Positions 1-33,544 of a stretch of DNA of 43,091 nucleotides are shown here, one piece after another; position 1 is the stretch's first letter, and each line of letters begins with the position of its first letter. The notes below the pieces were generated by a model. The model did no database searches. It saw only the letters and a list, made by a program, of their open reading frames with translations, and was not told the origin of the DNA. The DNA lies in contig JAFSJN010000020.1 in NCBI GenBank assembly GCA_017439235.1, positions 1-43,091 on the forward strand, given 5' to 3'. This DNA is from Paludibacteraceae bacterium (GTDB lineage: Bacteria; Bacteroidota; Bacteroidia; Bacteroidales; Paludibacteraceae). Position numbers and translations under genes: made by a program.

Positions 1-77
1 TATGATTTATGATTTATGATTTATGATTTAGGATTTAGGATTTAGGATTTAGGATTTAGGATTTAAGATTTTTGATT
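1..77. repeat. Heptanucleotide tandem array
   Basis: Eleven 7-base units sit in register: four TATGATT (1-28), five TAGGATT (29-63), one TAAGATT (64-70) and one TTTGATT (71-77). The array probably continues left of the window. It ends five bases before the ATG of the Wzz-like gene and takes the place of a normal promoter or leader. The block structure, runs of one variant followed by runs of another, is what slippage or unequal exchange leaves behind. Related 7-base tracts lie inside rlmN and the O-methyltransferase gene. Confidence 0.95.
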
Positions 78-81
78 TGAT

Positions 82-15995: not shown

Positions 15996-17084
15996 TTATC
16001 TATTTTCTTCTTGTCGTTTAGCAATCAACATACCGCAAGCAGCCAAGATATCCTCTCCGCGACTGCGACGAATAGTGGTGGTCAAACCGTGCGTAGTCAG
16101 ATAATCGCGGAAAGCAATCATACGCTTCTCATCGGAGGATTTCAAATTTAGGGTTTCTGATTTATGATTTTCTTCGCCTTCGTGGAAGCGGATGAGGTTG
16201 ATACGGCATTCGAGACCGCGGAGCAGAGAGACTAAGGCTTCGGCATGACGGGGAGTATCGTTAACTCCGCTCCAACAGATATATTCAAAGCTCACACGAC
16301 GTTGTCCCGTAAAGTCATACTGACGCAATAGTTCCACTACCTTTTCTATCGACCAAGCTTTCTCAGCCGGCATGATCTCCTTGCGTTCTTCCGGGAAAGG
16401 ATTATGCAACGAGATAGCTAGATGACAATCGCTTTCGTCCAAGAAACGCTTCAGTCCCGGGATAACGCCTACCGATGATACCGTGATACGTTTCGGGCTC
16501 CATGCCGGTCCATACGAAGCCGTCATAATCTCCAGCGCTCGTAAGACTTGGTCTATATTATCCATCGGTTCGCCTTCGCCCATCAATACCACATTGGATA
16601 TCGGCAATCGGTTATTGGCAATTTGTAATTGGTCTATGGCAAAAATCTGATTCAGTATCTCTGTAGCCGATAGTTGGCCGTGAAAACCTAACGTACCGGT
16701 CATACAAAACTTACACCCCATCTTACATCCTATCTGTGTCGACACGCACAAGGTTGCTCTGTCCTCCTCGGGGATATAGACACTCTCAACGTAGTTGAGA
16801 GATTTTAGATTTTCGATTTTAGATTTTTGATTTTCAATTTGGAACAAATACTTCCTTGTGCCATCATTGCTGACAACTTCGTGGACCGGAGCATGACGAC
16901 CGACGGTATAGTGTTGACTGAGGTAAGCGCGAGCTTTGAGCGAGAGGTTGGTCATGTGGTCGATGTCCGAGACACGCTTCCCGTATAGCCAGTCTGCTAT
17001 CTGACGGGCTACGAAACGCGGCCAACCGGCATTAGCGGTAATAGCCTGCAAATCGGGCAATGTCTTTCCGAGTAAGTTCTCCAT
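15996..17084 (-). CDS. rlmN: 23S rRNA (adenine-C2)-methyltransferase RlmN
   Basis: A 362-residue radical-SAM enzyme methylating A2503 of 23S rRNA and A37 of some tRNAs. The cluster cysteines are Cys120, Cys124 and Cys127 (CKMGCKFC). The two mechanism cysteines are probably Cys113 (TLCVS) and Cys350 (AACGM). The MGEGEPMDN motif is at 168-176. Three segments look foreign to the family: residues about 81-95, about 150-163 and about 305-316. Each is encoded by a heptanucleotide repeat tract and lies in a surface-loop position between conserved blocks. All catalytic residues remain, so activity is expected. The stop and the next start are six bases apart. Confidence 0.95.
   Translation of the reverse strand: MENLLGKTLPDLQAITANAGWPRFVARQIADWLYGKRVSDIDHMTNLSLKARAYLSQHYTVGRHAPVHEVVSNDGTRKYLFQIENQKSKIENLKSLNYVESVYIPEEDRATLCVSTQIGCKMGCKFCMTGTLGFHGQLSATEILNQIFAIDQLQIANNRLPISNVVLMGEGEPMDNIDQVLRALEIMTASYGPAWSPKRITVSSVGVIPGLKRFLDESDCHLAISLHNPFPEERKEIMPAEKAWSIEKVVELLRQYDFTGQRRVSFEYICWSGVNDTPRHAEALVSLLRGLECRINLIRFHEGEENHKSETLNLKSSDEKRMIAFRDYLTTHGLTTTIRRSRGEDILAACGMLIAKRQEENR
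16139..16172. repeat. Heptad repeat tract inside rlmN (C-terminal loop)
   Basis: Nearly five 7-base units in register (plus strand): ATTTCAA, ATTTAGG, GTTTCTG, ATTTATG and ATTTTC. They encode a polar Asn/Lys/Ser/Glu-rich stretch at residues about 305-316 of RlmN, between the conserved RFHEG and FRDYL blocks. Confidence 0.8.
16596..16637. repeat. Heptad repeat tract inside rlmN (middle loop)
   Basis: Six 7-base units on the plus strand: GGATATC, GGCAATC, GGTTATT, GGCAATT, TGTAATT, GGTCTAT (42 bases). They encode residues about 150-163 (DQLQIANNRLPISN), just before the conserved MGEGEP segment. The unit differs from the other rlmN tracts (GGnAATT rather than GATTTTn). Confidence 0.7.
16801..16842. 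repeat. Heptad repeat tract inside rlmN (N-terminal loop)
   Basis: Six 7-base units: GATTTTA, GATTTTC, GATTTTA, GATTTTT, GATTTTC, AATTTGG. The 42 bases are a multiple of both 7 and 3, so the frame is kept. They encode IENQKSKIENLKS at residues about 83-95, where RlmN homologues have only a short loop between KYLF and VESVYIP. Confidence 0.9.
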
Positions 17085-32899: not shown

Positions 32900-33544
32900 A
32901 TGACTCTCGAAGACTATATCGAACGCTATTCGTCTCCCGAACCGGAATGGTTAAGTCGCATCACTCGGGACACCTATCAGCATGTCCTCAATCCGCATAT
33001 GTTGTCCGGTCAGGTACAGGGACGCTTGCTCAGCATGCTCTCGCACATGTTGCAGCCTAAGTACATCCTCGAATTGGGCACCTATACCGGTTATTCGGCG
33101 CTCTCATTGGCGGAAGGATTAGCCGAAGGCGGACAGGTATACACTATCGAGCATAACGACGAATTGGAAGACACTATCCGCCGTAATATAGCCTCTTCGC
33201 CCTATGCCGACCGCATCACCCTACTCCTCGGCGATGCGAAAACCATCATCGGAAATCGAGAATCGGAGATCGAGAATCGAAACTTTGATTTGGTCTTTAT
33301 CGATGCCGACAAACGCGAATACTGCGCCTATTACGACCTTATTTATTCTCGTGTGCGCGTAGGTGGATATATCTTGGCGGACAATACGCTCTGGGACGGA
33401 CATGTAGTGGATAGTGCCTACGACCGCGATGCCCAGACGCTCGGTCTACGCGCCTTCAACGAACGCATAGCCACCGACGAACGTGTCGAGCAGGTCATCC
33501 TGCCCGTACGAGACGGTCTGACGTTAATTCGTAAACTCTGTTAA
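32900..33544 (+). CDS. SAM-dependent O-methyltransferase
   Basis: A 214-residue enzyme of the catechol/caffeoyl-CoA O-methyltransferase-like family. The SAM motif ILELGTYTGYSALSLAEGL is at about 56-74. The acidic residue of YTIEHND at 81-87 binds ribose, and metal-binding Asp residues are seen in VFIDADKREY (132-141) and LADNTLWDG (159-167). Substrate is unknown. Residues 118-128 (GNRESEIENRN) are encoded by heptad repeats and lengthen a loop before the metal site. The start follows the mapped promoter; a longer upstream frame would include the promoter itself. The stop interlocks with the stop of the opposing yitT gene. Confidence 0.9.
   Translation: MTLEDYIERYSSPEPEWLSRITRDTYQHVLNPHMLSGQVQGRLLSMLSHMLQPKYILELGTYTGYSALSLAEGLAEGGQVYTIEHNDELEDTIRRNIASSPYADRITLLLGDAKTIIGNRESEIENRNFDLVFIDADKREYCAYYDLIYSRVRVGGYILADNTLWDGHVVDSAYDRDAQTLGLRAFNERIATDERVEQVILPVRDGLTLIRKLC
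33251..33285. repeat. Heptad repeat tract inside the O-methyltransferase gene
   Basis: 7-base units in register: GGAAATC, GAGAATC, GGAGATC, GAGAATC, GAAACTT. On the minus strand these resemble the GATTTTC-type units of rlmN (GATTCTC). They encode a Glu/Asn/Arg-rich loop at residues about 118-128, between GDAKTII and FDLVFIDADK. Confidence 0.8.

Follow-up and report, generated by a model that had tools for sequence, protein, structure and literature searches.

The window, i.e., the whole stretch of 43,091 nucleotides that was analysed, is contig C15 of genome G000 (1.486 Mb, rated 77% complete). It carries an rlmN gene, the product of which matched TIGR00048 with 325 bits (cutoff 290). Tandem copies of 7-nt units (heptads) were found in three loops of this gene and at two further places in the window:

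15996..17084, minus strand: rlmN, coding for an RNA methyltransferase of 362 aa with three repeat-bearing loops (open reading frame and TIGR00048).
16800..16842, minus strand: loop 1, GATTTTN heptad array, clean part at 16800-16834, peptide ENQKSKIENLKS.
16596..16637, minus strand: loop 2, degenerate heptads, GGNAATT = ATTGGYN.
16138..16172, minus strand: loop 3, degenerate heptads RATTTNN, weak taken alone.
1..78: GATTTAN array at the edge of the window, with a unit of the family found in rlmN loop 1 and no open reading frame (ORF) of at least 90 aa over the array.
33248..33282: AATCGRN period-7 tract, 19 of 28 lag-7 matches.

All three rlmN tracts, already noticed in a preliminary description of this DNA, do exist. 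Loop 1 contains a strict period-7 array of 35 nt with 25 of 28 lag-7 matches; across 38 kb, no 28-position window at any of eight other lags had more than 19. None of 303,710 windows at these lags reached the strength of loop 1, two reached that of loop 2 (19 of 28) and 82 that of loop 3 (17 of 28). Loop 1 is far beyond chance and loop 2 clearly so; loop 3 is marginal by itself, resembles the RATTTNN unit of G000 and is of variable length. Loops 2 and 3 fell below the threshold of the tract finder (score of at least 9) used for the other counts, and part of loop 2 was called by TRF as a 14-nt period. The earlier impression of tracts of exactly 42 bases, a common multiple of 7 and 3, did not survive, as this length depends on the choice of ends and the clean array of loop 1 spans 35 nt, in a loop 33 nt longer than that of the relative L006. 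The tracts do avoid conserved residues, as proposed: Cys 119, 123, 126 and 349 were invariant across 32 aligned RlmN sequences and all lie outside of them. No benefit to RlmN is implied by the tracts, and the arrays are probably neutral.

RlmN was found in 36 of the 37 genomes of the genus, and 30 of these sequences were included in the alignment. Their length variation resides mainly in the three loops. Loop 1 of the RlmN encoded in the window is 11 aa longer than in L006; many members of the genus are free of repeats in these loops (L006, L009 and L017 for loop 1), and RlmN proteins without heptads have other residues at these positions. Other heptads occupy loop 1 elsewhere, namely TCTCCAA (L032), GATTGGA (L003) and ATTGGTN (L004), and L029 carries AGTCGAA in loop 3 plus an array at a fourth place. 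Arrays of ATTGGTN, the unit type of loop 2, were observed in 6 of 10 sister genomes searched. Compared to the RlmN of the window, the E. coli protein (3rf9) lacks 11 residues in loop 1 and 6 in loop 3. Its loop 2 is 3 residues longer without any heptads, so the length of loop 2 by itself is unremarkable. Using a score of at least 12, 36 period-7 arrays were found in 48 rlmN loci of the clade versus none in 32 loci of other Bacteroidales, a contrast in which some loci are close kin to one another and in which one tract appeared outside the clade at the looser score of 11. For periods 8, 9 and 11 the numbers were 14, 9 and 13 inside the clade versus 0, 0 and 1 outside; arrays of these periods are also almost confined to the clade (rlmN loci L031-L110 and sampled genomes). 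Loop 3 of L029 contains near 2464 a segment of 39 nt with GGGGTCCCC-like inverted stretches by eye, for which L058 provides a clean empty site. Other insert types in rlmN loops of other species include CTCCCCCTC...GAGGGGG and the peptides SERGQGG and SVSESGLSGEAG (L034 near 3451; L010, L019).

The repeats are genome-wide, as the preliminary description had suspected. At a score cutoff of 12, a 400-kb sample of G000 (20 stretches that make up 27% of the genome) contained 26 arrays of period 7 and none of periods 3, 4, 5, 6 and 8, and three order-4 Markov shuffles gave no tracts at any of eight periods tested. Heptads also exceeded their reversed-word control elsewhere in the genome (63 versus 16 matches). 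Of 39 tracts with a score of at least 9 in the G000 sample plus window, 22 lie outside ORFs of at least 90 aa; 9 are in the interior of an ORF, 6 at an edge and 2 at the N-terminus. A peak at period 7 was present in all 7 genomes sampled, being weakest in G014, with lesser peaks at 8 or 11 in most. Across the DNA examined, arrays occur at about 300 places, between genes, in housekeeping genes and in RNase P RNA. A total of 95 were assigned to long open frames, 105 to intergenic DNA and 12 remained ambiguous, a count with perhaps one or two duplicates, since L038 and L141 share sequence on opposite strands. Relative to the available sequence, arrays are nevertheless less frequent in genes: a greedy, generous count assigns about 94% of the G000 sample to ORFs. 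The array-bearing genomes, mostly metagenome bins, are labelled Paludibacteraceae, uncultured Bacteroidales or Candidatus Colicola, with stated sources mostly in ruminants and horses. Signal-like N-terminal peptides (by eye) seemingly made of heptad arrays were seen in L126 (13802-13830) and L117 (1725-1755).

Heptads inside RNase P RNA were found in G019 and G023, i.e., in 2 of the 7 genus loci in which the RNA was covered; of the 8 loci taken, L275 is cut at a contig end with the RNA uncovered, and some loci of other families are partly covered. About 9.5 units of TAATGCT were observed in the RNA of G019 (loci L279/L282, with G023). Among known cases in other bacteria, the tRNA-Leu intron of Nostoc contains heptads. 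Short tandem repeats of the STRR type are reportedly also present in the RNase P RNA of heterocystous cyanobacteria, as Vioque is said to have described in 1997.

Hosts identified by Pfam and NCBIfam included class I fumarase, Mfd, DNA ligase LigA, a 5'-3' exonuclease as in PolA, AlaRS, an aromatic amino acid lyase, RlmL-like and RNA methyltransferases, pullulanase, glycosyltransferases and a nucleotidyltransferase; 2 of 16 proteins gave no match, and some NCBIfam matches were below cutoff. For 94 coding arrays orthologues were compared: 37 had a spanning match in the rest of the DNA examined, 29 of these at an identity of at least 45%, and 27 remained after removal of two matches to the own genome. 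A gap of at least half of the tract was found in 7 of the 27 pairs (RlmN, fumarase, pullulanase, two glycosyltransferases, the PolA region and an RNA methyltransferase), a smaller gap in 8 and zero net gap in 12. Simple insertion is therefore no description of these 12 cases; arrays often replace a segment instead of lengthening it, or both relatives bear repeats. G003 and G032 carry different heptads in one gene at two sites, in a nucleotidyltransferase and in Mfd. Array lengths of 30-33 nt were found for 35 of 95 coding versus 17 of 105 intergenic arrays (p-value of 0.001), lengths of 38-50 nt for fewer coding (5) than intergenic arrays (17; p-value of 0.02). This length bias matches the prediction of frame selection. 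An enrichment of stop-free units in coding arrays was considered and dropped: stops on both strands were counted in 21 of the 140 units from coding arrays and in 62 of the 146 from intergenic ones, but an open frame had itself been the criterion for "coding", which makes the comparison partly circular.

The two unit types of the preliminary description, GATTTTN and GGNAATT, turned out to be merely two among many heptads, including AATTAAN, ATTGGTN, AAAGTCR, TAACCCN and others, in sets that differ by species. The pattern AAAGTCNAAAGTCNAAAGTC was found in 21 of 37 genus genomes (1 to 39 matches each; G000 had none) and, of 24 other genomes, in one, giving a total of 212 matches versus 18 for the reversed word. 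A longer AAAGTCR pattern gave 159 matches in 6 of 393 Bacteroidales genomes: 75 in G292 (same genus), 75 in G332 (another family; overlapping matches in long arrays), then 5, 2, 1 and 1. Both inspected long AAAGTCR arrays of G332 (L329, contig C12; L330, contig C26) lie in non-coding DNA. The reversed word of this search was found 51 times in 17 of the 393 genomes, with up to 10 matches each and none in the genus; heptad arrays per se are therefore not restricted to the clade. ATTGGTN gave 36 matches versus 12 for its reversed word, AATTAAN 77 versus 39, the latter control being nearly a rotation of the unit and so not independent. Exact unit matches were observed for 6.1% of array pairs within one genome versus 1.2% between genomes, and with one mismatch allowed, sharing within genomes was 0.166 versus a maximum of 0.120 in 1000 label permutations. 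Genomes thus re-use their own units at different sites above expectation. In AATTAAN arrays of G000 an identical order of variant units recurs at unrelated sites. The 34 tracts of G035 consist mostly of different units. An apparent concentration of unit variation in two neighbouring positions was discarded; the permutation was biased because one mutated unit gives two mismatches in one column.

The AAAGTCR family was analyzed for its ends and length. From 134 matches in six genomes, loci were taken for 60 (several overlapping) and complemented by two genomes from sampled stretches, resulting in 50 rows from 8 genomes, or 49 sites, as L248 was entered twice. Exactly 30 nt, about 4 1/3 heptads, was the modal length (27 of 50 rows), and 5 rows had 31 nt. 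Of the 30 arrays in long ORFs, 18 were of 30 nt and 5 of 31 nt, and 6 of 15 intergenic arrays were of 30 nt. Under a looser definition including the 50 rows, 38 of 59 arrays start with AGTC and 47 of 59 end with AAAG, where about 1 in 7 was expected; these end statistics refer to AAAGTCR alone and still include orthologous copies across species. In 120 kb of G292, 9 of 14 arrays start at AGTC and 14 of 14 end at AAAG. The bases just outside are biased, too: 23 of the 38 arrays starting with AGTC are preceded by T and 30 of the 47 ending with AAAG are followed by C, and the true ends may sit a base or more further out. The copies occur in several reading frames and both orientations, in coding and intergenic DNA, and their flanks look unrelated by eye. 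As ends are preferred and the length is modal at 30 nt, AAAGTCR copies were probably dispersed as blocks, and random slippage in situ is disfavoured for this family, because slippage would not set the phase of both ends.

Closely related copies document how arrays change. L032 and L034 share 92% identity over 4 kb, and loop 1 of their rlmN genes differs by 21 nt, i.e., by three units, so that the frame is kept, in line with the preliminary description. Two arrays differ by 7 nt each between G063 and G064 (93%). Other indels in the five genome pairs were in many cases not multiples of 7, and two pairs were nearly without array change. A gene pair of G000 exists in three near-identical copies, one of which has an array one unit shorter; a second array downstream differs more. 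The repeated pair (L210, L214 and L217 on contigs C2, C3 and C4; second ORF MNANSKSAILRFVLGLIELIL...) carries variable heptad arrays between and after the genes. Pairs of filled and empty sites came from genomes that were 87-93% identical. In a gene matching the fumarase peptide, an array in G070 faces about 10 other bases in G069 (87% identical overall) between matching flanks, and in G022 another heptad lies at this site. G065 and G066 (91%) bear different array types at one position.

Overall, the interpretation of the preliminary description was partly supported. It had offered a single element or slippage; block-like dispersal and unit-wise change were both seen, and neither alone fits. 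We favor, with a probability of about 55%, the reading that the rlmN tracts are local instances of clade-wide dispersed heptanucleotide arrays, shaped by block copying and 7-nt slippage. New copies would arise by short templated insertion or replacement, possibly through template switching or conversion-like copying out of another array, and after arrival the arrays would lengthen or shorten by 7-nt slippage. As 7 and 3 are coprime, a heptad array encodes one 7-residue cycle in all three frames, and a stop-free unit is therefore tolerated in any frame as long as the overall length change is divisible by 3. Selection would spare arrays between genes and wherever proteins or RNAs tolerate them. 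No copying machinery for the arrays was found, and the mostly different units of G035, which fit independent local events, speak against this explanation, as do the 12 orthologue pairs with zero net gap, the differing array types of G065 and G066, the heptad arrays outside the clade and the predominance of metagenome bins among the genomes. Tentatively, the arrays may even constitute a self-spreading class of heptad-built sequences of about 30 nt with fixed ends, inserted by templated copying into coding and non-coding DNA, that is, a coding-compatible selfish repeat readable in three frames, whose unit is rewritten as species diverge.

The units of G035, together with the differences of 7 and 21 nt between relatives, can also be explained by pure slippage in situ, where each site starts from a chance seed, replication in the clade favors 7-nt slips and frame selection keeps +21 nt. 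Two publications propose for such repeats that 7 nt is the length in contact with the polymerase (PMC4679880, PMC4692102). We consider this explanation doubtful, however, in view of the non-random sharing of units inside genomes, the variant order common to separate AATTAAN arrays, and the preferred ends and 30-nt length of AAAGTCR. Slippage through lost mismatch repair is contradicted by mutS1, which was over cutoff in 34 of 37 genus genomes; the three others, G000, G018 and G031, are rated 77, 54 and 84% complete. Loss of MutS as a clade-wide cause was rejected, mutS1 being over cutoff in 56 of 61 genomes. The arrays might also be passengers of a conventional mobile element or MITE, which would account for dispersed copies with preferred ends in both orientations, intergenic and coding, yet the flanks of inspected copies look by eye unrelated and free of inverted repeats, and the few filled/empty pairs that were read showed no target duplication; we consider such an element quite unlikely. 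Adaptive loops, under selection for their peptide sequence, are very unlikely, since the peptide at one loop differs among species and is absent in many, and intergenic DNA and RNase P RNA contain arrays as well; the reading strand in G007, mostly the hydrophilic one, is in line with adaptation. Finally, most source genomes are MAGs, and an artefact of assembly or binning has to be considered, but the pattern recurs with intact frames across many separately deposited assemblies, including G292 (rated 100% complete), and we regard an artefact as scarcely credible.

If the favored reading is true, block-copied heptad arrays provide housekeeping enzymes with new protein segments in bacteria for which no transposase is known, and they allow the colonisation of coding DNA by non-triplet repeats to be tested. 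When segments of this kind turn up in predicted proteins of these bacteria, caution is advised, as they may be lineage-specific repeat DNA and not conserved features. Heptanucleotide repeats are already known as an abundant bacterial class; in the open-licence PMC literature searched, neither an invasion of protein genes at this scale nor heptads in protein loops of Bacteroidales were found.

According to the literature, heptanucleotide repeats are over-represented in many bacteria and are described for Xanthomonas, Nostoc, Beggiatoaceae and a few Bacteroidetes (PMC4679880, PMC4692102), TAACTGA being the repeat of Beggiatoaceae (PMC4679880). Our arrays resemble the cyanobacterial STRR and TAACTGA in the unit length of 7, the head-to-tail copies in excess of chance, the many intergenic arrays, the arrays in RNase P RNA and the differences among relatives, in a few examples by whole units. 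The mainly intergenic placement of such repeats, rare in mid-gene, was not observed here: unlike STRR and TAACTGA, arrays in long open frames are about as many as those outside, many units occur in sets specific to the species, and a modal form of 30 nt exists in one family. Length differences by whole units are also known from the simple sequence repeats of phase variation (contingency loci), but the named hosts here are mostly housekeeping enzymes, and the loop change in rlmN keeps the frame. With the Rickettsia palindromic elements, described as elements of about 150 bp that invade protein genes in frame (PMC10969869), the arrays share dispersal and in-frame presence within unrelated genes. 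They differ from these elements in being tandem heptads of about 30 nt and in not being palindromic, the AAAGTCR and GATTTTN arrays showing no self-complementarity as judged by reading the sequence.
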